Of a stretch of 64,000 nt of DNA, positions 1-11,240 are shown piece by piece. The notes beneath the pieces were generated by a model. It had not been told where the DNA came from. It saw only the letters and a program-made list of their open reading frames with translations, and made no database searches. Both the position numbers and the translations under genes were made by a program. Source of the stretch: Plantactinospora soyae (GTDB taxonomy: Bacteria; Actinomycetota; Actinomycetes; Mycobacteriales; Micromonosporaceae); the NCBI RefSeq assembly GCF_014874095.1, contig NZ_JADBEB010000001.1, forward strand, positions 4,650,001-4,714,000, read 5' to 3'. Within the stretch, counting starts at the first letter, position 1, and each line of letters starts with the position of its first letter.

Positions 1-725
1 CGGTGCTGAAGCAGCTCTCCGGTCAGCTGCACCTGTCGGCCCGGACGGTCACCGGGCAGACCCTGGGCGAGGTGCTGGCGGACGTCACGGTCGCGGACGA
101 GGAGATCATCCGTCCGGTCGACCGCCCGCTCGGGCGCCGGCCCGGGATCGTGGTGGTGCGCGGCTCGCTCGCTCCGGACGGCGCGGCGGTCAAGCGGCCG
201 GTCGACGACCGGGGACCGAGCCGGTTCGAGGGCGAGGCGATCGTCTATCCGAGTCGGGACACCGCGCTGGCCGGGCTGGCCGCCGGCCAGATCCGGGCCG
301 GGCACGTGGTGGTGGTGGCCGGGCTCGGCCCGAGGGGCGGCCCCGGGATGGGGATGGCCTCGGCGGTGGTCTTCGCGCTGGACGGTGCCGGGCTGGGCGA
401 GACGGTCGCGGTGGTCACCGACGGGCAGATGTCGGGCCTGGTCAACACCGGAATCGTGGTCGCCGAGGTGTCCCCGGAGGCGGCCGTCGGCGGCCCGTTG
501 GGCCTGGTCCGCGACGGCGACCGGATCTCGATCGACGTCACCGCCCGGGTGGTCGACCTGCTGGTGCCCGACGACGTCCTCGCGCAGCGCCGGGCCGGGT
601 TCCGGGTCCGGGCCAGCTCCGGTGAGCGGGGCTGGCTCTCCATCTACGAGCGGCTGGTCACACCGGTGGCCGAGGGCGCCGTACTGACCGAGGCTGTACC
701 GGACGAGGAAGGGAAGGCACGATGA
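1..725 (+). CDS. IlvD/Edd-family dehydratase, C-terminal part (5' end outside window)
   Basis: This is the C-terminal portion of an IlvD/Edd family Fe-S dehydratase, which removes water from a sugar acid or dihydroxy acid to give a 2-keto acid. The open frame enters from before base 1 (first complete codon at 3), so the start is not visible. Family hallmarks are GLGPRGGPGM (residues 107-116 of the visible part) and TDGQMSG (139-145), the C-terminal swivelling-domain motifs that close the active site. The stop overlaps the next gene's start as ATGA, so the two are translationally coupled. Whether it acts on dihydroxyisovalerate or on a sugar acid cannot be told. The catabolic neighbours (aconitase X, FAD enzymes, Rieske oxygenase, IclR) favour an aldonic-acid type dehydratase over branched-chain amino acid synthesis; that is inference. 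Confidence 0.88.
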   Translation, partial: VLKQLSGQLHLSARTVTGQTLGEVLADVTVADEEIIRPVDRPLGRRPGIVVVRGSLAPDGAAVKRPVDDRGPSRFEGEAIVYPSRDTALAGLAAGQIRAGHVVVVAGLGPRGGPGMGMASAVVFALDGAGLGETVAVVTDGQMSGLVNTGIVVAEVSPEAAVGGPLGLVRDGDRISIDVTARVVDLLVPDDVLAQRRAGFRVRASSGERGWLSIYERLVTPVAEGAVLTEAVPDEEGKAR

Positions 726-2080
726 CGCCGGGGAGCACCGAACTGGTCGAGCCGGGCCGGAGCACACCGGTGCTCGGCGAGTACGAGGTCGTCGTACTCG
801 GTGGTGGGCCGGCCGGGATCATGGCGGCGGCCGCGGCGGCCCGGGCGGGCCGGTCCACGATCCTGATCGAGCGGTACGGCTATCTGGGCGGAGCCGGCAG
901 CGCCGGTGGGCTGAGCACCTTCTGTGGGCTGCACGCCAACGTGCACGGCGACCACCGTCAGGTGATCCACGGGCTCGCCGACGACCTGCTGGCCCGGATG
1001 GACGCCCTGGGTGGGCTGAACCCGCCGCACCTGTCCTTCGAGAACCGGATCCTGGCCCAGGCGTACGACATCGCGGCGTACAAGATCGCCACCGATGACC
1101 TGGTCGTGGAGTCGGGCGCCACGGTGCTCTTCCACGCGCTCGCCGTCGGGGTGGTGATGGGCGGCGACGACAGCGTGCACGCGGTGCTGGTGGAGTCGAA
1201 GTCCGGTCGGGGGGCGATCGTCGGGCAGATGTTCGTCGACTGCTCCGGAGACGCCGATCTCGCCGCCTGGGCCGGTGCGCCGTACGAGAAGACCCCGGGC
1301 GACGCCGGGATGATGTATCCCTCGCTGATGTTCCGGATCAACGGGGTGGACGCCGAGACGGCGATCCGGGAGCGGGAGCGGCTGCCCGAGCTGATGGACG
1401 CCGCCGAGCGGGAGGGCGCCTTCCAGTTCGCCCGGAAGAAACCGATCGTCCGCCCGCAGCGCAACCCGCTGGAGTGGCGGGCCAACATGACCCAGCTCAG
1501 CAACGCCGACGGCAGCGCGATCGACGGCACCGACGTGGAGCAGCTCAGTCGGGGCGAGTTGCAGGGTCGGCGGCAGATCCGGGACCAGTTCCCGTTCTTC
1601 CAGCAACGGGTGCCCGGATTCGCGAACTCGTACGTGGTCGACATCGCCCCGTCGATCGGCATCCGGGAGACCCGGCGGATCATCGGCCCGTACCAGCTCA
1701 CCAGCGACGACATCCTGGACTGCGCCGACTTCCCCGACTCGGTCGGGGTGAACGGCTGGCCGGTGGAGGCGCACGTCGCCGGTGACGTGGTGATCCGCTG
1801 GCCGAACGGTGCGAACCCGCGCGGGTTCAACCAGCTGCCGTTCCGGATGATCGTGCCGCAGCGGCTGACGAACGTGTACGTCGCCGGCCGGTGCGCCTCG
1901 ATGACCCACGACGGCCAGTCGTCGGCCCGGGTCACCGGCCCGTGCTTCGCGATGGGCCAGGCGGCCGGTACGGCGGCGGACCTCGCGCTCGCCGCCGGGG
2001 TGGCGGGCGGCGAGGTCGACGTAGCGCGGTTGCAGAAGCGGCTGGTCGACGACGGCGCCTATCTCGGTACGACGTGGTGA
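722..2080 (+). CDS. FAD-dependent oxidoreductase (FAD_oxidored type)
   Basis: A 452-residue flavoprotein. The N-terminal Rossmann motif VVVLGGGPAG is at residues 23-32, with the ribose-binding Glu at about residue 50. A C-terminal signature near residues 390-425 (CASMTHDGQSSARV followed by GQAAGTAADLA) is typical of the FAD_oxidored family that includes fumarate-reductase-like and sugar or hydroxy-acid oxidising enzymes. No signal peptide or membrane segment is seen, so it is cytosolic. The start ATG overlaps the preceding stop by 4 nt and has a GGAAGGGAAG ribosome site. It sits between a dehydratase and aconitase X, which suggests oxidation or reduction of a hydroxy-acid intermediate in the same pathway; the substrate is unknown. 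Confidence 0.85.
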   Translation: MTPGSTELVEPGRSTPVLGEYEVVVLGGGPAGIMAAAAAARAGRSTILIERYGYLGGAGSAGGLSTFCGLHANVHGDHRQVIHGLADDLLARMDALGGLNPPHLSFENRILAQAYDIAAYKIATDDLVVESGATVLFHALAVGVVMGGDDSVHAVLVESKSGRGAIVGQMFVDCSGDADLAAWAGAPYEKTPGDAGMMYPSLMFRINGVDAETAIRERERLPELMDAAEREGAFQFARKKPIVRPQRNPLEWRANMTQLSNADGSAIDGTDVEQLSRGELQGRRQIRDQFPFFQQRVPGFANSYVVDIAPSIGIRETRRIIGPYQLTSDDILDCADFPDSVGVNGWPVEAHVAGDVVIRWPNGANPRGFNQLPFRMIVPQRLTNVYVAGRCASMTHDGQSSARVTGPCFAMGQAAGTAADLALAAGVAGGEVDVARLQKRLVDDGAYLGTTW

Positions 2081-2125: not shown

Positions 2126-3400
2126 ATGCGGCTCACCGATGACGAGCGGAGCATGCTCGACGGCGAGCAGGGCGAGGCCGTACAGGCCGCGATGGACCTG
2201 CTGGTCCGGTACGGCGAGGTGCTCGGCGCCGAACGGCTCGTCGACACGGACAACGTCTGCGGGGCCAACATCTTCGGGCAGCGGCAGATGATGCTCTGCG
2301 GCGCCAGCGATCCGGACGCGGTCTTCTCGGAGTTCAGCCTGGACAGCCCGAGGCCGGTCGAGATCACTCCGATGAAGGCGCAGAGCTACCAGTTGATCGG
2401 CCCGATGGACACCCAACACTGGCAGGTGCAGGGGCTCAGCCAGGAGGCGCACGACGCGATCGAGGAGAGCGAGTCGTACAGCGCCCGGCACGGCATCCAC
2501 CTGATGAACACCTGCACGCCGTACCAGGTCGGAAACGTGCCGGTGAAGGGGGAGCACTGCGCCTGGATGGAGTCGTCGGCGGTGGTCTACGTCAACTCGG
2601 TGCTCGGCGCGCGGACCAATGTGGAGGGTCGGGAGAGCACGGCGGCGGCGATGCTCACCGGCAAGATCCCGTACTGGGGGTACCACCTGGACGACAACCG
2701 GTTCGGCAGCCACCTGGTGGAGGTCGCCGAGCCGGTGACCAGCAGCCTGGACTGGGGCCTGCTCGGCTACTACGTCGGCGAGCAGGTCCAGGAGGGCGTA
2801 CCGGTGCTGGACGGCATCGCCGAGGTGCCGAATCTGGTCAAGCTCAAGCACTTCGGCGCCGCCGCCGCGTCGTCGGGCGGGGTGGAGATGTACCACATCC
2901 CCGGGACGACGGTGGAGGCCCGGACCGTGGCGGAGGCGTTCGGGCCGCGCCGGCCGGTACAGACCCTCCGGTACGGGGCGCGGGAGCGCCGGCAGACGTA
3001 CGAGCAGTTGAACCACACGGCCCGGGACAGCGACGTCGACCTCGTGATGATTGGCTGTCCACATGCGACGCTGAGTCAGATCCGGGACGTCTGCCGGCTG
3101 GTGCAGGGCCGGAAGGTCCATCCGGACAGCGCGCTCTGGGTCTTCACGCCCCGGGCGATCCGGCAGGTGGCCGAGCAGAACGGCTACGCGCAGATCCTCC
3201 GGGACGCGGGAGCGCTGCTGATGAGTGACACCTGCCCGGCGATCGGGCAGTTCCTGCCCAAGGGGACCCGGGTGATCGCCACCGACTCGGCCAAGCAGGT
3301 GCACTACCTGCCGGCGATCATGAAGGTGCAGGGCTGGTTCGGCACCACCGAGGAGTGCGTCAACTCGGCGCTGACCGGTACCTGGCAGGGGAGCCTGTGA
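2126..3400 (+). CDS. Aconitase X catalytic (large) subunit
   Basis: A 424-residue member of the aconitase X (AcnX, formerly DUF521) family. These are Fe-S or metal dependent dehydratases; characterised members include cis-3-hydroxy-L-proline dehydratase and archaeal phosphomevalonate dehydratase. Visible conserved stretches are NTCTPY (128-133), the following region to about 165, IGCPHATL (309-316), SDTCPAIG (367-374) and TDSAKQVHYLP (387-397). The cysteines in these motifs are candidate cluster ligands. A GGAGG site precedes the ATG. The stop overlaps the start of the small subunit by one base (TGATG), so AcnX is encoded here as two separate chains. The actual hydroxy-acid substrate is not evident from sequence. 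Confidence 0.9.
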   Translation: MRLTDDERSMLDGEQGEAVQAAMDLLVRYGEVLGAERLVDTDNVCGANIFGQRQMMLCGASDPDAVFSEFSLDSPRPVEITPMKAQSYQLIGPMDTQHWQVQGLSQEAHDAIEESESYSARHGIHLMNTCTPYQVGNVPVKGEHCAWMESSAVVYVNSVLGARTNVEGRESTAAAMLTGKIPYWGYHLDDNRFGSHLVEVAEPVTSSLDWGLLGYYVGEQVQEGVPVLDGIAEVPNLVKLKHFGAAAASSGGVEMYHIPGTTVEARTVAEAFGPRRPVQTLRYGARERRQTYEQLNHTARDSDVDLVMIGCPHATLSQIRDVCRLVQGRKVHPDSALWVFTPRAIRQVAEQNGYAQILRDAGALLMSDTCPAIGQFLPKGTRVIATDSAKQVHYLPAIMKVQGWFGTTEECVNSALTGTWQGSL

Positions 3401-3915
3401 TGGGCGAGGCCAACACCGTCACGTTGCGCGGCCGGGGCCTGGTGGGCGGCGTGGTCGAGGGCGAGGCGCTGGTGACCCGGGACAGCATCTCCGGCTGGGG
3501 CGGGATCGAGCCGACCGGCGGCCGGATCATCGAGTCCCGGCACGAGTTGAGCGGCCAGTCGTTCAAGGACAAGATTCTGGTCTTTCCGGGCGCGAAGGGC
3601 TCCTCCGGCTGGTCGGGCATGTTCCACATGTCGCGGCTCGCCGGCTCCGCGCCGAAGGCGATGATCTTCAACTACATGAACACGAAGATCGCCCTCGGCG
3701 TGGTGGTGACCCGGGTGCCGGCGGTCACCGACCTCGACCAGAACCCGCTGGACGTGATCGAGACCGGCGACTGGGTACGCGTCGACGCCGACACCGGAAC
3801 CGTCGTGGTGACCAAGGGAGGCCGACCCGGAGGCGGTGTCGGTGGGCCGGAGACCGGCGCGGAGAAGGCGGCGACCGGGCGGCCCGGGAAGGAAGTGGGC
3901 GGACACGATGACTGA
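3400..3915 (+). CDS. Aconitase X swivel (small) subunit
   Basis: A 171-residue homologue of the DUF126/AcnX swivel domain, which closes over the active site of the large subunit. The stretch GRGLVGGVVEGEALV near the N-terminus and PGAKGSSGWSGMF at about residues 63-75 are characteristic; the Ser-rich loop of the latter is the usual catalytic element of the small subunit. The ATG overlaps the large-subunit stop (TGATG), which decides the start over an in-frame ATG 45 bases upstream. The C-terminal 25 residues are Gly/Arg-rich and poorly conserved-looking. Its stop overlaps the start of the UGSC gene by 8 bases, so the large subunit, small subunit and UGSC protein are almost certainly translated from one message. 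Confidence 0.88.
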   Translation: MGEANTVTLRGRGLVGGVVEGEALVTRDSISGWGGIEPTGGRIIESRHELSGQSFKDKILVFPGAKGSSGWSGMFHMSRLAGSAPKAMIFNYMNTKIALGVVVTRVPAVTDLDQNPLDVIETGDWVRVDADTGTVVVTKGGRPGGGVGGPETGAEKAATGRPGKEVGGHDD

Positions 3916-4450
3916 CTGGGCGGGAACCATCCTGGACCCGACCGGGGACACCGACCAGGGCGCGGACACCACGTTGGCGGCCCGGCTGGGCAGTCTCCGC
4001 GGGGCCACCCTCGGGCTGCTGGACAACGGCAAGCCGAACGGCTCGGTGTTGCTCACCGAGATCGGCGACCACCTGCGCGAGCGGTACGGCGTGCGCGAGG
4101 TGACGATGTACACCAAGTCCTACTTCGGTACACCGGTGGACCAGACGCTGACCGAGCGGATCGTGCAGGAGTGTGACTTCGCCATCGCGGCGATCGGTGA
4201 TTGAGGTTCCTGTAGCGCGGCCAGTCTGGCCGACGGAATTCTGCTGGAACGTGGTGGCATCCCAGCGGTCTCAATCTGCACCGAGCCATTCCGGATTACG
4301 GCCGACGCCATGGCGAAGGCGTACGGCTTTCCCGGTTTCCAGTACCTGTTGACGCCGCACCCGGTCGCCAGTCTCAGCCTGGCGGAGGTCCGGGAGCGGG
4401 TGGTCGCAATGACACCGCGCATCCTGGAGATCCTGGGGGTGGAACAGTGA
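3908..4450 (+). CDS. UGSC-family selenoprotein, Sec99 encoded by in-frame TGA at 4202-4204
   Basis: Read conventionally this gene stops at 4204 after 98 residues. Read through the TGA it gives a 180-residue protein ending at 4450, with selenocysteine at residue 99 in AIGD-U-GSCSAASLADG. The name-giving UGSC motif of this (seleno)protein family is thus present exactly, with the redox pair Sec99 and Cys102. Downstream sequence stays protein-like (ERGGIPAVSICTEPF, then LLTPHPVASLS and an amphipathic C-terminal helix) and ends by overlapping the next start (CAGTGA). Homologues in organisms without selenium use would be expected to carry Cys at this place. The TGA is followed by a SECIS-like hairpin, annotated separately. 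The function is unknown; a redox role is inferred from the motif. selA/B/C/D are not in this window. Confidence 0.88.
4202..4250 (+). promoter_or_regulatory. Candidate bacterial SECIS element
   Basis: Directly after the TGA, CGGCCA (4218-4223) pairs with TGGCCG (4227-4232) around the loop GTC. Lower pairing is possible between GTTCC (4206-4210) and GGAAC (4246-4250) and between AGC (4214-4216) and GCT (4243-4245). Counting the U of UGA as 1, the loop places G at 23 and U at 24. These are the two loop bases contacted by SelB in E. coli fdhF, and GTCTG at 23-27 is identical there. The bulged U17 of E. coli is not conserved (C here). Codon choice in this stretch is less G/C-ending than in the flanks, as expected if RNA structure constrains it. 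Folding was done by eye. Confidence 0.7.
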
Positions 4451-5574
4451 CGACGACCGGTTCGCCGGTGGTGTCCGACGGCGGCGGGGTGGCCGACCCC
4501 GCCGCCGTACAGGACGCGATCGAGTACTGCTACGAACGCGGCTGGACCGACGGACTTCCGGTGGTCCCGTGCGACCAGGCGCTGTTGGACCGGTTCCTGG
4601 CCCAGACCGACCGGGACCCCGGCGACGTCGTCTTCGCGATGCCGCACCTGAACCGGAACTGCACGGTACGGCTGGCCGCGCTCAACGCGGCGATGGCCGG
4701 CTGCCGTCCGGAGTACTTCCCGGTGGTGCTCGCGGCCTGGGACTCGCTGGCCGCCGAGGGCTACCTCGCCAAGGGGATCTGGCAGAGCACCACCGGCACG
4801 GCACCGCTGGTGCTGGTGAACGGGCCGGTACGGGAGCGGATCGGGTTGAACGGCCGGGGGAACGTCTTCGGGCCCGGCTTCCGGGCCAACGCGACGATCG
4901 GCCGGGCGCTCCGGCTGACCGCGCTGAACGCGTTCGGCCTGCGCCCCCGGGAACTCGACCAGGCGACCCAGGGCACGCCGGCGAAGTACACCCTCTGCAT
5001 CGCCGAGAACGAGGAGGAGAGTCCGTGGACGCCCTTCTCCGCGCAGTTCGGGTTCGCGGCGGGGGAGAGCACCGTCACCGCGCTGACGATCCGCTCGGTC
5101 GTGCACGTCGAGGCCCGGCACACGGGCGTACCGGAGCAGTTGCTGCGGGACTTCGCCGACACCGTGGCCCGGACGGGGGCGTTGCTGCACGAGACGATCA
5201 GCGCCTGCCTGGTGCTGAGTCCGGAGCACGCCCACCTGCTGGCCGACGCCGGTTGGGACCGGCAACGGATCAGCCGGTACGTCTTCGAGACGGCGGTACG
5301 CAGCCGGGTGGAGCTCGACCTGGCCGGCAAGGGGAGCGTGTCCCGGAAGTCCCGGTGGCGGGTTCCCGGTGACCATCCGGACGCCGTCGCGGACCGGGAG
5401 GCGGAGACCGATCCCGCCTCGACGGTCGGGGCGGGCCGGGTGCACGTGTTGAACTCTCCGGAGGCGGTCCTGGTGACCGTGGCCGGGGCGTCGAACTCGG
5501 GGGTCTCCGCCGTGGTCGAGACCTTCGGGCCCCGGGGCGGGAGCCCGCACGTCGTACCGGTGGCGGAGCTCTGA
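4447..5574 (+). CDS. UGSC-partner protein of unknown function
   Basis: A 375-residue cytosolic protein with no signal peptide or membrane helix. Its start GTG overlaps the selenoprotein stop and is preceded by GGGGGTGG. The N-terminal block EYCYERGWTDGLPVVPC (about residues 26-42), then NRNCTVRLAALNAAMAGC and PEYFPVV, is a pattern I associate with proteins found beside or fused to UGSC proteins. Several cysteines (positions about 28, 42, 72, 85) lie in it and could exchange electrons with the Sec/Cys centre, but this is inference. The middle holds a Gly-rich stretch (GNVFGPGFRANATIGRALRL). I do not recognise an enzyme family with a known reaction. The 4-nt overlap implies coupled translation and a functional pair. 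Confidence 0.7.
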   Translation: MTTTGSPVVSDGGGVADPAAVQDAIEYCYERGWTDGLPVVPCDQALLDRFLAQTDRDPGDVVFAMPHLNRNCTVRLAALNAAMAGCRPEYFPVVLAAWDSLAAEGYLAKGIWQSTTGTAPLVLVNGPVRERIGLNGRGNVFGPGFRANATIGRALRLTALNAFGLRPRELDQATQGTPAKYTLCIAENEEESPWTPFSAQFGFAAGESTVTALTIRSVVHVEARHTGVPEQLLRDFADTVARTGALLHETISACLVLSPEHAHLLADAGWDRQRISRYVFETAVRSRVELDLAGKGSVSRKSRWRVPGDHPDAVADREAETDPASTVGAGRVHVLNSPEAVLVTVAGASNSGVSAVVETFGPRGGSPHVVPVAEL

Positions 5575-5633: not shown

Positions 5634-5655
5634 TAATTCACCGAGTGTTGAATAA
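5634..5655. promoter_or_regulatory. Inverted repeat in the promoter of the FAD monooxygenase
   Basis: TAATTCA (5634-5640) and TGAATAA (5649-5655) form an inverted repeat (6 of 7 pairs) separated by 8 bases. The left arm overlaps a good -10 candidate, CATAAT (5632-5637). It lies in the 88-bp gap before the monooxygenase start and could be an operator for the IclR regulator encoded at the end of the cluster or for an outside factor. Confidence 0.35.
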
Positions 5656-5662
5656 GGTGATC

Positions 5663-6925
5663 GTGGTGGCGGAGCGGACAACCTGCGTCGTCGTCGGAGG
5701 CGGACCGGCCGGGATGGTGCTGGGCCTGCTGCTGGCCCGGGCCGGCGTCGAGGTGACGGTGCTGGAGAAGCACGGCGACTTCCTGCGCGACTTCCGGGGC
5801 GACACGGTCCACCCGTCGACCCTGCGACTCCTGGACGAACTGGGCCTGGGCGAGAGGTTCGGGCGACTGCCGCAGAGCCGGCTGGACGAGGTCGCCTTTC
5901 CGATCGGCGGGGACCGGCAGATCGTGGTCGCCGACTTCCGTCGACTGCGGACCCCGCACCCCTACGTCGCGATGGTGCCGCAGTGGGACCTGCTCAACCT
6001 GCTCGCCGACGCGGGCGCGGCGGAGCCCACCTTCACCCTGCGGATGCGCGCCGAGGTCACCGAGCTGATCCGGGAGGCGGGCCGGGTCCAGGGGGTGCGC
6101 TACCTGGGGCCGGACGGCGAGCCCCGGGAGATCCGGGCCGACCTCACCGTGGCCTGCGACGGCCGCTGGTCGATCGCCCGCCGACAGGCCGAGCTGCGGC
6201 CCCGGGAGTTCCCCGTGCCGATCGACGCCTGGTGGTTCCGGCTGCCCCGCGACCCCGACGACGATCCGGCCGGGCTGACCCCGCGCGCCGGCCAGGGCCG
6301 GTTCGCCGTGGTGATCCCCCGGGAGGGCTACCTCCAGATCGCCTACATCGCCCGGAAGGGAACCGACGCGGAGCTTCGGGCCCGGGGCATCGAGGCGTTC
6401 CGGCGGGACATCGCGGAACTGGCGCCGTCGTTCGCGGACCGGGTCGGCGCGCTCGCCTCGATGGACGACGTCAAACACCTCGACGTACGGCTGAACCGGC
6501 TCGACCGCTGGCACGTGGACGGGCTGCTCTGCCTGGGGGACGCCGCCCACGCGATGTCGCCGGTCGGCGGGGTCGGGATCAACCTGGCGGTGCAGGACGC
6601 CGTCGCCGCCGCCACCCTGCTCGCCGAGCCGCTGCGGCGCGGCAGGGTCACCCCGGCCGAGTTGGCCGCGGTGCGGACCCGGCGCCTGCTGCCGACCATC
6701 CTCGTGCAGCGGTTGCAGCGGATGATGCACCGAGGGATGGTCGAGCCGATCCTCGACGGTCGACGGGCCGGACCACCCCGCGCCGTGCTGGCCCTGTTGC
6801 GGCGCGTCCCGGCCGTCTCGCTCCTGCCGGCCTACCTGATCGGCGTCGGCGTACGCCCCGAGCACGCCCCGCCGTTCGCCCGACGACCGCCGTCCGGCGC
6901 CGCCGTACCGGACCAGACCGGGTAA
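5663..6925 (+). CDS. FAD-dependent aromatic monooxygenase (PheA/TfdB-like)
   Basis: About 420 residues. It shows the class A flavin monooxygenase pattern: N-terminal VVVGGGPAGMVLGLLLARAG for the FAD ADP moiety, a DG-type segment in the middle (TVACDGRWSIARR) and the GD motif LCLGDAAHAMSPVGGVGIN about 290 residues in. Such enzymes use NAD(P)H and O2 to hydroxylate or epoxidise aromatic or polyketide substrates in the cytosol. Possible GTG starts are at 5645, 5663 and 5666; AAGGTGA at 5654-5660 best serves 5663 or 5666. It follows the UGSC pair after an 88-bp gap holding a promoter-like box and an inverted repeat, so it may begin a second transcription unit of the same cluster. The substrate is unknown. 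Confidence 0.85.
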   Translation: MVAERTTCVVVGGGPAGMVLGLLLARAGVEVTVLEKHGDFLRDFRGDTVHPSTLRLLDELGLGERFGRLPQSRLDEVAFPIGGDRQIVVADFRRLRTPHPYVAMVPQWDLLNLLADAGAAEPTFTLRMRAEVTELIREAGRVQGVRYLGPDGEPREIRADLTVACDGRWSIARRQAELRPREFPVPIDAWWFRLPRDPDDDPAGLTPRAGQGRFAVVIPREGYLQIAYIARKGTDAELRARGIEAFRRDIAELAPSFADRVGALASMDDVKHLDVRLNRLDRWHVDGLLCLGDAAHAMSPVGGVGINLAVQDAVAAATLLAEPLRRGRVTPAELAAVRTRRLLPTILVQRLQRMMHRGMVEPILDGRRAGPPRAVLALLRRVPAVSLLPAYLIGVGVRPEHAPPFARRPPSGAAVPDQTG

Positions 6926-7035
6926 CGAATTCCACTTCGGACAAACGTTCGGATCCGGGCCCACCAATTGATCCACATCTTCCGCCGGAACCCGTAGACT
7001 CCCCGCCGATCGGGTGGGACGAAACGGGGGAGAAC

Positions 7036-7857
7036 GTGAGCGGAAGCGACGTTAGGGCGGGCACCGAACAGGACTGGCAGACCGCCGCGGTGGACCGGGC
7101 GGTGCGGGCGGCCCAGGGCTACTGGGGGGAGCCCCTGGCGACGTACTGGTGGCAGGAGGCGCGTCGGCGGTCGCGGAGCCGGCTGATCGCGGTGCCCGGC
7201 GCGGTCGCGCTTGCCGCCGTGCTCTGCGCGGTGCCGTACACCCTGATGTCCGAGGCGTACGGCGCCTCAGTGGTGGTCGCGCTCGTCGGGATCGTGGCGG
7301 CCGTGATCGCGGTGCTGATGTACCGGGGCGGCAAGCCGAACGAGCGGATCGGCATCGTCCTGTTCTCCGGCGGCTTCGTCTGGGACGACGGCCGGGAGTC
7401 GGACGTCGTACCGTTCGACCAGATCGCCGACATCCGCCGCAGCGTGACCCAGCACCTCGGCTCCGGGGGAGCGGTCAAGTACACCTCACACCACTACACG
7501 GTGATCCGGCCGGACGGCAGCAGACTGCTGATCAACGACGCGTTCCACGATGTCGTCGAACTCGGCGACCGGGTGATGAGCGCGGTGACCGCGCTACAGG
7601 TGGCCGGCGGACGGGAGCGGCTGCACCGGGGCGAGACGCTCGACTTCGCCCCGTTCGCGATCAACCAGCGGGGCCTGAGGTTGGACAGCGACCTGCCGGT
7701 CACGCCCTGGTCGGAGGTGTCGGAGGTCCGGCTCCGGGACGGCAGCCTCGAAGTGCTGGTCAACGGGCGGAAGGTGGGCGCCAGGTTCATCCAGCACGTG
7801 CCGAACGTCTTCGTCCTGGTCACCCTCGCCGAGGAGTTGAGGCTGGCCGGCCGCTGA
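7036..7857 (+). CDS. DUF6585-like membrane protein
   Basis: A 273-residue protein with a short acidic N-terminus and two adjacent hydrophobic helices at about residues 53-72 and 78-98. A soluble C-terminal region follows, resembling the DUF6585 family (GIVLFSGGFVWDDG, VVPFDQIADIRRSVTQH). The second half repeats the theme (FAPFAINQRGLRL, VTPWSEVSEVRLRDGSLEV), which suggests two PH-like beta domains facing the cytosol. The GTG start follows GGGGGAG with ideal spacing. The function is unknown. It is placed between the monooxygenase and the Rieske oxygenase but separated from both by gaps of about 100 bases, so it may be unrelated to the catabolic genes. Confidence 0.7.
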   Translation: MSGSDVRAGTEQDWQTAAVDRAVRAAQGYWGEPLATYWWQEARRRSRSRLIAVPGAVALAAVLCAVPYTLMSEAYGASVVVALVGIVAAVIAVLMYRGGKPNERIGIVLFSGGFVWDDGRESDVVPFDQIADIRRSVTQHLGSGGAVKYTSHHYTVIRPDGSRLLINDAFHDVVELGDRVMSAVTALQVAGGRERLHRGETLDFAPFAINQRGLRLDSDLPVTPWSEVSEVRLRDGSLEVLVNGRKVGARFIQHVPNVFVLVTLAEELRLAGR

Positions 7858-7864
7858 GGCGAAC

Positions 7865-7881
7865 CTTCCGACATCCGGAAG
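7865..7881. terminator. Short hairpin after the DUF6585-like gene
   Basis: CTTCCG (7865-7870) pairs with CGGAAG (7876-7881) around a 5-base loop, 8 bases after the stop. There is no T-tract. It may be a weak terminator or an operator for the oxygenase gene that starts 73 bases later. Confidence 0.35.
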
Positions 7882-7954
7882 ACCTACTTCCGGGCCGACG
7901 TGGCACTCGACATGCTCCGGAGAACGGGTACATCCGCTTCTCCAAGGAGTCGCC

Positions 7955-9007
7955 ATGTCGGCCTTCGTACGCGACCAGTGGTATGTCGCCGCCTACAGCA
8001 GGGAGGTCGGGCGGGAACTGCTCGGCCGGACGATCCTCGGTGAACCCATCGTCTTCTACCGCACCGAACAGGGCGAGGCGATCGGCCTGGCCGACCGGTG
8101 CGTGCACCGCCGCTTCCCGCTCTCGGAGAGCCGCCTCGACGGCGACAACATCGTCTGCGGGTACCACGGGTTCACCTACGACCAGGGCGGCTCCTGCGTC
8201 TTCGTCCCCGGCCAGCAGCGGATTCCGCGTACCGCGCGGGTCGCGTCGTACCCGGTGGTGGAGCAGGACTCGTTCGTCTGGGTGTGGATCGGGGACCGGG
8301 CCAAGGCGGACCCGACGACGATCCCCCGGGCGCCCTGGCTGGCCGACCCGAACTACACCACGGTGTGCGGGATGGAGCCGCTGAACGCCCGGTACATGTT
8401 GCTGGTCGACAACCTGATGGACCTGTCCCACGAGACGTACCTGCACGGCGGGTACATCGGGACCCCGGAGGTCGCCGAGACGCCGATCCAGACCGAGGTC
8501 GACGAGGACTCCGGCACCGTCTACGTGAGCCGGCACATGGACGACGCGGCCTGCCCGCCGTTCTACGCCAAGTCGACCGGCATCGAGGGTCGGATCACCC
8601 GCTGGCAGGACATCGAGTACCACCCACCGTGCCTCTACGTCCTGCACAGCCGGATCGCGCCGCAGGGCGTCTACCCGCCCGCCGAGGGCCCGGACGACCA
8701 GGCGTTCCACGTCGAGGTCGTGTACGGGATCACGCCGTCGACGGAGAACACCACGTACGACTTCTGGGCCGTGGCACGGGACTTCGCGCTCGACGACGCG
8801 CAGGTCTCCGACTTCCTTCAGTCGAACAACCACACCGTGGTGATGCAGGACGTGACCGCCCTGAACCTGCTGGAGCAGGTCATCGCCACCGAGGCGGACG
8901 GGTACCAGGAACTCAGCATCAACATCGACACCGGTGGACTGGCGGCCCGGCGCATCCTGAAGCGGATGGCCGAGCGGAGCCGGCCGGAGGGCGCGGTGAC
9001 GTCATGA
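7955..9007 (+). CDS. Rieske aromatic-ring oxygenase / O-demethylase subunit (VanA-like)
   Basis: A 350-residue oxygenase. The Rieske [2Fe-2S] motif is CVHRRFPLS, then 11 residues, then CGYHGFTY (about residues 49-77). The mononuclear iron site is visible in NLMDLSHETYLHGG (about 153-166), supplying Asp and two His. Length and arrangement match vanillate O-demethylase and dicamba demethylase type monooxygenases, which take electrons from a VanB-type reductase; one is encoded 396 bases downstream. The ATG follows AAGGAG. It probably removes a methyl group from, or hydroxylates, a plant-derived aromatic acid; the exact substrate is not predictable. Confidence 0.9.
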   Translation: MSAFVRDQWYVAAYSREVGRELLGRTILGEPIVFYRTEQGEAIGLADRCVHRRFPLSESRLDGDNIVCGYHGFTYDQGGSCVFVPGQQRIPRTARVASYPVVEQDSFVWVWIGDRAKADPTTIPRAPWLADPNYTTVCGMEPLNARYMLLVDNLMDLSHETYLHGGYIGTPEVAETPIQTEVDEDSGTVYVSRHMDDAACPPFYAKSTGIEGRITRWQDIEYHPPCLYVLHSRIAPQGVYPPAEGPDDQAFHVEVVYGITPSTENTTYDFWAVARDFALDDAQVSDFLQSNNHTVVMQDVTALNLLEQVIATEADGYQELSINIDTGGLAARRILKRMAERSRPEGAVTS

Positions 9008-9264
9008 CCGGGCGGAGCGGGCGAACCGGCGACCGGATGCTGACCGGTCCACGGGTCTACCGGATCGAGTGGGTGCTCGGCACCGACCGGCTCCGGGGGC
9101 ACTGCTACTGCGGCGCCTCCCACGACGCCGAGGACCCGATCGAGTTGTGGACCTGGCTGCTCGCGCACCCCGACAGCCATGGCGGGGACCGGCCGGAGGT
9201 CCCGGGACCGGTCGACCGGGACCCGGCCGGAACGGTCCGGCGACCCGAGCCGGTGCCGGCCTGA
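9004..9264 (+). CDS. Small Cys-containing protein between the Rieske oxygenase and its reductase
   Basis: An 86-residue protein overlapping the oxygenase stop by 4 nt (ATGA). The conserved-looking core is YRIEWVLGTDRLRGHCYCGA followed by an acidic stretch and ELWTWLLAHP. The Cys-Tyr-Cys and nearby His could bind a metal. The C-terminal 25 residues are low-complexity and pass into the tandem repeat that begins at the stop codon. I know of no assigned function; position suggests an accessory factor of the oxygenase system. Confidence 0.7.
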   Translation: MTGRSGRTGDRMLTGPRVYRIEWVLGTDRLRGHCYCGASHDAEDPIELWTWLLAHPDSHGGDRPEVPGPVDRDPAGTVRRPEPVPA

Positions 9265-9370
9265 CCGGTACCGCCCCGACCGGCCACGCCGGCCTGTCCC
9301 GCCGCGCCGGTCTGTCGCGCCGGCCTGTCCCGCCGCGCCGGTCTGCCCCGCCGCGCCGGCCTGCCCAGCC
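9256..9370. repeat. Degenerate 18-nt tandem repeats starting at a stop codon
   Basis: Units resembling GCGCCGGCCTGTCCCGCC recur about five times between 9288 and 9370. A related GCCGGCCTGACC contains the stop codon of the preceding gene (TGA 9262-9264). It fills most of the 138-base gap before the reductase gene. No promoter or protein-coding signal was seen. Confidence 0.7.
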
Positions 9371-9402
9371 CCGAACACGACGCCGAACCGGATGGCCGAC
9401 CA

Positions 9403-10374
9403 GTGCACAGCAACCCCGATCCCATTCCCGAGATCGAACTCGACCTGCTGCTGGCCGCGAAGCGCGAGGCGGCGGAGGGCGTCGTCGTACTGACGCTGCG
9501 CCGTCCGGCCGGGGCGCCGCTGCCGGCCTGGGAACCGGGCGCCCACCTCGACCTGCTGCTCCGCCCCGATCTGGTCCGGCAGTACTCGCTCTGCGGTGAC
9601 CCGGCCGACCGCACCGAACTACAGGTGGCGGTGTTGCGGGAGGCCGACGGTCGGGGTGGTTCGGCGTACGTCCACGACGAACTGCCGGTGGGCGCGACCG
9701 TACGGGTCCGGGGTCCCCGTAACCACTTCGCCCTGCTGCCGGCCAGCCGGTACCTGTTCATCGCGGGCGGGATCGGGATCACCCCGCTGGTGCCGATGAT
9801 CGCGGCAGCCGAGGAGGCGGGTGCCGACTGGCGACTCGTGTACGGCGGGCGGTCCCGCGCCTCGATGGCGTTCCGGTCGGAACTGCGGGACCGGTACGGC
9901 GAGCGGGTCTCGATCCACCCGCAGGACGAGACCGGGCTGCTCGACCTGCCGGCGCTGCTCGCCGAGCCCGATCCGGAGCGCCTGGTCTACTGCTGCGGCC
10001 CCGAACCGCTGCTCGCGGCGGTGGAGGCCAACTGCGGGCACTGGCCCTCCGGTGCGCTCCGGGTCGAGCGGTTCGCGCCGAAGACGTTCGACGAGCCGGC
10101 CCGGCGGGAGTCGTTCGAGGTGGAACTCGCCCAATCGGGTCGGACCCTGGAGGTGCCGCCCGGTTCCTCGATCCTCCAGGTGGTCGAGGAGGCCGGCATC
10201 CCGGTCCTCTCCTCGTGCCAGGAGGGGACCTGCGGCACCTGTGAGACGGCGGTGCTCTCCGGTGTTCCGGAGCACCGCGACTCGCTGCTCACCGAGGAGG
10301 AGCAGGCGGCCAACGACACGATGATGATCTGCGTGTCCCGGTCCTGCTCCGCGCGGCTGGTGCTCGACCTCTGA
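9403..10374 (+). CDS. VanB-like PDR ferredoxin-reductase (FMN/NAD and 2Fe-2S)
   Basis: A 323-residue phthalate-dioxygenase-reductase type protein that passes electrons from NAD(P)H to the Rieske oxygenase. From the N-terminus: a flavin-binding barrel with RQYSLCGDP (about residues 64-72), an NAD-binding domain starting GGIGITPLVPMI (about 123-134) and CCGPEPLL near 198. A C-terminal plant-type ferredoxin domain has CQEGTCGTC (about residues 273-281) and a fourth Cys 35 residues on. The start is taken as GTG 9403; the ribosome site is weak because of the repeat upstream. It pairs functionally with the 7955 gene. Confidence 0.88.
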   Translation: MHSNPDPIPEIELDLLLAAKREAAEGVVVLTLRRPAGAPLPAWEPGAHLDLLLRPDLVRQYSLCGDPADRTELQVAVLREADGRGGSAYVHDELPVGATVRVRGPRNHFALLPASRYLFIAGGIGITPLVPMIAAAEEAGADWRLVYGGRSRASMAFRSELRDRYGERVSIHPQDETGLLDLPALLAEPDPERLVYCCGPEPLLAAVEANCGHWPSGALRVERFAPKTFDEPARRESFEVELAQSGRTLEVPPGSSILQVVEEAGIPVLSSCQEGTCGTCETAVLSGVPEHRDSLLTEEEQAANDTMMICVSRSCSARLVLDL

Positions 10375-10430
10375 ACCATCCGTCCCCGGCGGCAAATATG
10401 CTGGTGGCCACGGGTGGCGAGGGCTGGAGG

Positions 10431-11240
10431 ATGTCGGTGCCGGACGGGACGCCGTCGGGAACGGGATCGGTGACCGTACGGGCACTGAGGTTGCTCGAGG
10501 CGTTCACCCCGGACCGCCGCGAGCTCACCCTCACCGAACTCGCCCACCGGGCCGGGTTGCCGCTCACCACCACCCACCGGCTGGTCAACGACCTCGCCGG
10601 CTGGGGGGCGGTGGAGCGGGACGCGGACGGCCGCTACCACATCGGGCTCCGGCTGTGGGAGATCGCCTCGTTGGCGCCGCGCGGGCTCGGGCTCCGCGAG
10701 GCCGCGCTGCCGTTCCTGGAGGACCTGTTCCAGGTGACGCAGGAGAACGTCCAACTCGCCGTCCGGGAGGGCCTCGAGGTGGTGTACGTCGAGCGGATCG
10801 CCGGCCACAGCGCCGTACCCGTGCTGACCCGGGTCGGCGGGCGCTTCGCGATGCCACCCACCGGGGTCGGGCTGGTACTGCTGGCACACGCTCCGGCCGA
10901 CGTACAGGAGACGGTGCTCGACTCGCCGTTGCAGCGGTTCACCGAGCGGACCATCACCTCGCCCCGGGAACTGCGCCGGGTGCTCGCCGAGGTCCGGCGG
11001 ACCGGGATCGCGATCAGTGACCGGCAGGTGACCATGGACGCCCTGTCGATCGGCGCCCCGGTGTACGGCGCGACGGGTGAGGTGGTCGCCGCGGTCTCGA
11101 TCGTCGTCCGGGCGCCCCGGCCGCAGCGGGCCGGCCTGATCCCGGTGGTCCGGGCCGCCGCGCGGGGGATCTCCCGGGTGCTCCGGGCACCGGCGCTGTC
11201 GACGCCCTCACGGCCGGTACGCCCCGACCCGGAGCGGTAG
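10431..11240 (+). CDS. IclR-family transcriptional regulator
   Basis: About 269 residues. An N-terminal winged helix (VTVRALRLLEAF, then LTLTELAHRAGLPLTTTHRLVNDL, about residues 11-60) is followed by the IclR ligand-binding domain (GLREAALPFLEDLFQVTQENVQLAV, RVGGRFAMPPTGVGLVLLAHA, and the closing APVYGATGEVVAAVSIV). ATG 10431 has GGCTGGAGG just upstream, although ATG 10398 is also in frame. Lying at the 3' end of the catabolic cluster, it is the natural candidate to sense a pathway intermediate and control the Rieske, monooxygenase and dehydratase genes. The C-terminus runs straight into a 30-nt tandem repeat. Confidence 0.9.
   Translation: MSVPDGTPSGTGSVTVRALRLLEAFTPDRRELTLTELAHRAGLPLTTTHRLVNDLAGWGAVERDADGRYHIGLRLWEIASLAPRGLGLREAALPFLEDLFQVTQENVQLAVREGLEVVYVERIAGHSAVPVLTRVGGRFAMPPTGVGLVLLAHAPADVQETVLDSPLQRFTERTITSPRELRRVLAEVRRTGIAISDRQVTMDALSIGAPVYGATGEVVAAVSIVVRAPRPQRAGLIPVVRAAARGISRVLRAPALSTPSRPVRPDPER

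Follow-up and report, generated by a model that had tools for sequence, protein, structure and literature searches.

A predicted UGSC-family selenoprotein of Plantactinospora soyae, its near-fixed partner gene and a remote relationship to GrdB/PrdB

The closest described relatives of the gene studied here are the UGSC family itself (NF041046/PF24696), the UGSC proteins of the Geodermatophilaceae and the selenocysteine (Sec) proteins GrdB and PrdB of glycine and D-proline reductase, a type of enzyme with a pyruvoyl partner subunit (GrdE/PrdA). The UAG-encoded UGSC proteins of Geodermatophilaceae were reportedly described by Mukai et al. 2016. As far as the accessible parts of the respective papers tell, the Global Ocean Sampling work described a fusion of the UGSC domain with 'Unknown_1', an uncharacterised conserved domain (PMC2398784), Geodermatophilaceae carry a tRNA-Sec with anticodon CUA matching codons in their UGSC genes (PMC5330540), and glycine reductase operons can contain trxA/trxB (PMC10536192). 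Here we analyse a UGSC-family gene with an in-frame TGA, located in a 64,000-nucleotide stretch of the Plantactinospora soyae genome (assembly GCF_014874095.1, contig NZ_JADBEB010000001.1, positions 4,650,001 to 4,714,000; hereafter the window). Based on its relatives, its gene company and a remote similarity to GrdB/PrdB, we propose, with a probability of roughly 0.4, that the UGSC protein supplies the redox half of a catabolic reductase which has two subunits and is recycled by thioredoxin.

The reading frame opens with an ATG at 3908, reaches the TGA (4202-4204) at residue 99, continues for 81 more sense codons and ends with a TGA at 4448-4450; its start is overlapped by the preceding gene, for the aconitase X (AcnX) swivel subunit (stop at 3913-3915), and its stop by the GTG start (4447) of a partner gene, the latter overlap being 4 bases long. 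When read through, the product aligns with PF24696 from profile position 1 to 171, out of 172 (E 1e-60, 205.2 bits against a cut-off of 25), and with NF041046 at E 1e-45 (155.3 bits against a curated cut-off of 125), with the U/C-G-S-C motif at the position usual for the family. Searched singly against NF041046, the half before the TGA covers positions 2-68 (E 5.5e-13) and the half behind it positions 70-146 (E 4.8e-24), leaving one single column between them. By these profile matches, 3908-4450 is a full-length gene of a family that already bears the name "(seleno)protein". The first-pass annotation of this DNA had placed the TGA exactly on the U of U-G-S-C, with 81 codons beyond it, an end overlapping the next gene and a 98-residue stump set against a 180-residue read-through product. 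All of this agrees with our coordinates and profile matches, and the conservation beyond the TGA that it suggested looking for among homologues is present in the post-TGA match. The catalogued selenoprotein status of the family, the partner gene, the hairpin described below and the relation to GrdB/PrdB go beyond that annotation.

The open frame past the TGA, taken alone, proves little, since in this GC-rich window, of the 261 TGAs (both strands) preceded by 95 or more open codons, 110 have at least 80 further ones behind them. The case for Sec rests instead on homology, on a hairpin and on the decoding genes and, based on these three, the UGA at 4202-4204 is very probably read as selenocysteine.

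Two sets of relatives were compared. The first comprises 53 UGSC genes extracted from 51 loci together with their surroundings (matches shorter than 250 bases were dropped before counting); at the motif, 36 of them have TGA and 17 another codon (16 Cys, 1 Ser). The second, from named genomes, comprises the best 80 of 196 relatives, with 17 TGA, 5 TAG and 58 Cys codons; Cys forms are over-represented in it, as one of its two search patterns has Cys written into it, and its TGA and partner counts hold three repeats, given that L194, L195 and L199 are very probably the first-set genes of L046, L047 and L045. The closest second-set relatives are those of Plantactinospora mayteni (92% identity) and P. 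endophytica (91%), and Geodermatophilus and Blastococcus account for all five TAG genes (L196, L197, L198, L200 and L202), with the same hairpin downstream of the TAG at the Sec position. Some individual relatives depart from the common form: the Ser homologue (L051:8796-9317, motif LSGGCT) still adjoins a partner gene; a genus relative holds only N-terminal pieces of a second UGSC gene (L059:8936-9209, genome G087), a remnant among the short matches dropped; and two genes of one genome (L107 and L108, G435) form a divergent group of partner-fused UGSC proteins, whose motifs read GGU-DGC and GGU-PGC and whose hairpin does not align with the others.

Immediately after the Sec codon, the ungapped stretch of the first-set genes can form 8 pairs round a 3-nt loop, which starts with GU in 30 of the 36 TGA genes. 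In the window, 6 of the 8 positions pair (4218-4223 with 4227-4232) round the apical loop GUC (4224-4226), which lies 19 nt from the UGA. The inner five pairs are complete in 30/36 TGA genes but in 2/17 non-TGA genes of the first set and, in the second set, in 17/17 TGA, 5/5 TAG and 5/58 Cys genes; by these comparisons the hairpin tracks the Sec codon across relatives, whether TGA or TAG. The protein sequence does not explain it, since the mean of 6.94 pairs out of 8 is far above that of 2000 synonymous-codon shuffles (4.73, standard deviation 0.22, maximum 5.42). Additionally, two-sided changes occur in 6 of the 8 pairs, with a covariation score of 0.259 against 0.093 when shuffled. The formate dehydrogenase gene fdhA of the same genome has the loop GGUCU at positions 22-26 from the T of its TGA, where the UGSC gene has AGUCU. 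Published limits for the bacterial selenocysteine insertion sequence (bSECIS), in the accessible part of PMC13188914, are a loop of 3-9 nt, an upper stem of 4-16 bp, a G in the first two loop positions and a distance from the UGA of mostly 16-37 nt; with its GUC loop, 6-bp upper stem and 19-nt spacing, the window hairpin lies inside them. An Rfam search of 3 kb round the UGSC gene returned no SECIS-like match.

The organism has what is needed to decode such a codon. Its genome, a single 9.7-Mb contig (100% complete), holds selB adjoining selA, next to this pair a divergent selD, and a tRNA-Sec whose anticodon is UCA (Table 1), so that all the decoding genes which the first-pass annotation had named for a search were found. 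Six further matches to the tRNA-Sec model RF01852 are Ser, Cys, Tyr or Gln tRNAs according to ARAGORN, for which reason the score of this model alone is not specific here. The fdhA gene, about 8.5 kb from selD, has one in-frame TGA at its U-H site (context ARI-U-HSATV), and a second UGSC gene (6158236-6158745), whose protein is 68% identical to that of the window, also has one TGA; these genes and the decoding machinery bear out the earlier proposal of a selenium-decoding actinobacterium. A second formate dehydrogenase alpha gene (G000:C1:4183878-4186943) shows no in-frame stop in its matched parts.

The trait was also expected to be patchy, and it is. In 250 genomes of the bacterial family of the organism, 12 have PF24696 matches (11 above the cut-off), and TGA is confined to 5 UGSC genes in 3 genomes of its own genus (of 7 genus members drawn), the other matches being free of stops; a Micromonosporaceae metagenome-assembled genome from outside this draw (L204) also has a UGSC gene with TGA. 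In 396 genomes of the phylum, 29 have matches (27 above the cut-off), many with one TGA. Among 36 chosen genomes (G108, G385, G445 and G519 having been dropped beforehand for weak or partial matches), a tRNA-Sec (E 1e-11 or better) is present in 25/25 with a TGA-type UGSC gene versus 6/11 with only non-TGA genes (Fisher p 0.0012). In two genomes (G561 and G372) the tRNA-Sec (UCA) gene itself (L118:10643-10738 and L117:3897-3992) lies no more than about 2 kb from a UGSC-partner pair.

The partner gene is the most constant companion of UGSC. It adjoins or is fused to UGSC in all 53 first-set genes (fused in 11, after it in 12, before it in 30), the fusions comprising 5 TGA and 6 non-TGA forms; one partner copy (L054) lies in pieces in different frames. 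In the second set, it is found within 700 bases on the same strand in 73 of 80 loci and, in the phylum draw, 28 genomes have it at E 1e-10, including all 27 with UGSC above the cut-off (Fisher p 5e-41). The remaining genome (G432) is the sole one of the 396 with the partner and no UGSC match; it has four partner-family matches on contig C272, and a UGSC-independent use of the partner is possible there. The window's partner protein matches no Pfam or NCBIfam family, the 53 members give scattered weak matches only, and the partner profile matched no solved structure. Structure comparisons (Foldseek, VIA-align) listed class I fumarate hydratase, cyanuric acid hydrolases and others, matches too weak to be used. 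The Unknown_1 domain of the Global Ocean Sampling paper is probably the same family.

Profile comparison links UGSC to known Sec enzymes. Aligned with hhalign to a joint GrdB/PrdB profile (built without L132 and L133), UGSC reaches a probability of 95.2 (P 2.5e-8) and, with the Sec column masked, still 93.8 (P 1.7e-7) over 131 columns, with Sec aligned on Sec; the best of 59 neighbour-gene families used as controls gives P 4e-4, and reversed profiles P 0.17 or worse. At the level of sequence profiles, UGSC and the Sec domain of GrdB/PrdB share a distant but significant relationship. The family searches are silent on this relation: the 53 UGSC members match 21 families at E up to 1, none of them GRDB, and a search of the organism's genome for PF07355 at E 0.001 came back empty. 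Likewise, hhalign found nothing between UGSC and the partner, GrdE-like or GrdC-like profiles, the latter two being genes beside GrdB assigned by position and eye. In the accessible parts of the literature on UGSC, selenoproteins and glycine reductase (PMC2398784, PMC13188914, PMC9312934, PMC5029168, PMC5330540) we found no link between UGSC and GrdB/PrdB, and an earlier printed mention is possible.

The window gene lies in a run of catabolic genes (Table 1). From its upstream end to the partner, as read in a longer extract (L025) and in the window, there follow in order an ATP-binding cassette (ABC) transporter (NMT1-like binding protein, ATPase and permease), an aldehyde dehydrogenase, the N-terminal half of a transketolase, an alcohol dehydrogenase, two short-chain dehydrogenases, the IlvD/Edd-type dehydratase (whole frame L025:9029-10726), a flavin adenine dinucleotide (FAD)-dependent oxidoreductase, AcnX, its swivel subunit, UGSC and the partner. 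Downstream, the genes at 5645..11240 have homologues in the same order in the genus relatives L046 and L047. Given strand and spacing, the genes from the ABC transporter to the regulator may form one operon. The second UGSC locus of the genome has UGSC, partner, IlvD, FAD oxidoreductase, Rieske and ferredoxin reductase genes in common with the window.

Table 1. Features of the locus and selenium-decoding genes. Positions are those of the window, except in the last four rows, which give genome positions.
Feature	Position	Strand	Evidence or remark
IlvD/Edd-type dehydratase, C-terminal part	1..725	+	PF24877, E 2.5e-52; starts ~970 bases before the window
FAD-dependent oxidoreductase (PF12831)	722..2080	+	E 5.6e-109
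AcnX large subunit	2126..3400	+	PF04412, E 1.4e-117
AcnX swivel subunit	3400..3915	+	PF01989, E 5.3e-26; end overlaps UGSC start codon
UGSC-family selenoprotein gene (predicted)	3908..4450	+	180 codons plus stop, Sec at residue 99; PF24696, NF041046
Sec codon TGA (predicted)	4202..4204	+	TGA or Cys codon at same column in 52 of 53 first-set genes
Bacterial SECIS-type hairpin (predicted)	4216..4234	+	pairing, covariation in relatives
Partner gene (375 aa)	4447..5574	+	no Pfam or NCBIfam model; start overlaps UGSC stop
FAD monooxygenase	5645-6925	+	probable downstream operon gene
Rieske oxygenase	7955-9007	+	probable downstream operon gene
Ferredoxin reductase	9403-10374	+	probable downstream operon gene
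Regulator, IclR by eye	10398-11240	+	probable downstream operon gene
selB	7009325-7010335		282 bits
selA	7010381-7011664		398 bits
selD	7011869-7012783		390 bits
tRNA-Sec, anticodon UCA	4068291-4068382

The company of AcnX and IlvD is not universal. Among 57 fetched loci, AcnX occurs in 3, IlvD in 5 and the FAD oxidoreductase in 5, all of the same genus as the window; in the second set the counts are 16/80, 15/80 and 28/80 (any of the three, 33/80), with these genes in part several kb distant and on the opposite strand. Other UGSC loci commonly carry coenzyme A (CoA)-linked catabolic genes, as read by eye from the starts of the sequences (CaiB in 12/57, own locus included). TrxB homologues with CxxC lie near UGSC in 8 of 137 loci (5/57 and 3/80), against a chance level estimated, from two or three copies per genome, at about 1/137; one Arthrobacter plasmid has the genes arranged as trxB-trxA-partner-UGSC. 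For L053, a TrxA-like match could not be confirmed, as the frame read has no CxxC. An annotated phosphosulfolactate synthase lies close to UGSC on an Arthrobacter plasmid (L143:2660-3448) and on a Natrinema plasmid (L144:3488-3955), and phosphoenolpyruvate (PEP) mutase-family genes are found near UGSC in two plasmids (L144 and L145).

SelA, SelB, SelD and tRNA-Sec very probably insert Sec at the UGA, directed by the short hairpin immediately downstream. In the mechanism that we propose, UGSC and the partner would form a two-component reductase working like GrdB/PrdB of glycine and D-proline reductase. The partner would bind the substrate, and the Sec, placed where a helix of a Rossmann-like domain begins, would attack the substrate or an intermediate. 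A selenenylsulfide would then form between Sec and the invariant Cys102 (U-x-x-C), to be reset by thioredoxin and thioredoxin reductase or by an equivalent donor. The reaction may be one step in the breakdown of an organic acid or a sugar-acid-like compound, in which two dehydratases (IlvD type and aconitase X), a flavoprotein and the Rieske oxygenase would act as well. More broadly, UGSC and partner might be obligate subunits of an uncharacterised class of GrdB/PrdB-type reductases, spread over aerobic bacteria and haloarchaea in catabolic operons and with interchanging Sec and Cys versions, a generalization that we put forward tentatively.

Several observations weigh against these readings. 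As to the hairpin, its single-sequence folding energy is unexceptional (z -0.76 over 42 nt and -1.53 over 60 nt for the window, 0.03 for the paralogue), hairpins of the window type have 6 and not 8 pairs, and in the non-TGA set (16/17 genes) 57.8% of the cells are paired and those columns covary as well, if less strongly: on two of the measures, 2 and 3 of 500 shuffles score as high. This makes the covariation statistic alone weak. As to the similarity with the reductases, it falls off when UGSC is compared with GrdB alone (probability 75.3, P 2.5e-5, 30 columns) or with PrdB-like proteins alone (90.7, P 1.3e-6), and the GrdB/PrdB side consists of 18 sequences. The partner profile shows no similarity to the GrdE-like, GrdC-like, GrdB and PrdB-like profiles; in the second set its adjacency fails in 7 of 80 loci (2 have the partner at a distance of about 4.5 kb on the opposite strand, and the other 5 show none), and one of the 73 adjoining matches (L248) is a weak 54-bit piece. 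Finally, the surroundings of UGSC in the window yielded no trx gene, and the trx genes of L206, L218 and L221 are wholly or partly on the other strand.

The alternative that survives best is a non-redox chemistry, in which Sec would act as a nucleophile in an isomerase, a lyase or a C-S/C-N bond-forming step of the dehydratase pathway; we regard it as somewhat less likely than the reductase. The guess made in 2008, that UGSC is a plain thiol oxidoreductase of the thioredoxin fold (in the accessible part of PMC2398784), is much less probable. The U-x-x-C motif, with its second Cys invariant (53/53), and the trx genes near some UGSC copies would suit such a protein, but the predicted fold of UGSC is Rossmann-like: the model has an alternating strand-helix order and its best structure matches are Rossmann/receiver-like. 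Foldseek returned generic alpha/beta folds, with no thioredoxin-fold entry among the 50 structure matches listed, which by itself excludes nothing, and the UGSC profile gave nothing usable against solved structures (best E 0.056). A selenium-free suppression of the UGA, which would put Cys or some other residue there, could draw on the Cys found at this position in many homologues; it is very improbable in view of the hairpin, of the co-occurrence with tRNA-Sec and of the TAG codon that meets a CUA anticodon in Geodermatophilaceae. A dead gene, with a TGA that is a genuine stop or arose by recent nonsense mutation, as the commonness of open frames in the window might allow, is hardly credible, given the same TGA in genus relatives (91-93% protein identity), in the 68%-identical paralogue and in many families of the phylum, and its replacement by TAG, with the hairpin kept, in Geodermatophilaceae.

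The proposed reductase is, in the first place, a testable guess, the first one, at the job of UGSC, which derives from the GrdB/PrdB likeness; its function can be tested because UGSC has a near-fixed partner and a likely electron donor, is linked to a known superfamily of Sec enzymes and sits in a defined catabolic operon of actinobacteria that can be cultured. In addition, the locus illustrates how annotation can lose genes: the partner family has no model in two libraries, and ordinary gene callers cut UGSC at the TGA.

Compared with the described systems, the window gene is a typical UGSC member, over both curated cut-offs, with Sec in the UGSC motif and Cys forms among its relatives; no feature of its own sets it apart from the family, and the context and the partner are what is added here. 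To the UAG-type UGSC proteins of Geodermatophilaceae it is 67-72% identical, with the same hairpin downstream, and those loci also have AcnX and the FAD oxidoreductase, about 6-7 kb from UGSC and on the other strand; the difference lies in the Sec codon, TAG there and TGA here. The reported fusion of UGSC with Unknown_1 (accessible part of PMC2398784) resembles the 11 of 53 first-set UGSC genes that are fused to the partner. With GrdB/PrdB, UGSC shares a remote profile similarity, Sec on Sec, and the possible presence of trxA/trxB in operons of both kinds (for glycine reductase, in the accessible part of PMC10536192), whereas it is shorter, has no recognised GrdE/PrdA-like partner and is found with oxygenase genes, a company from which its hosts are probably aerobes.
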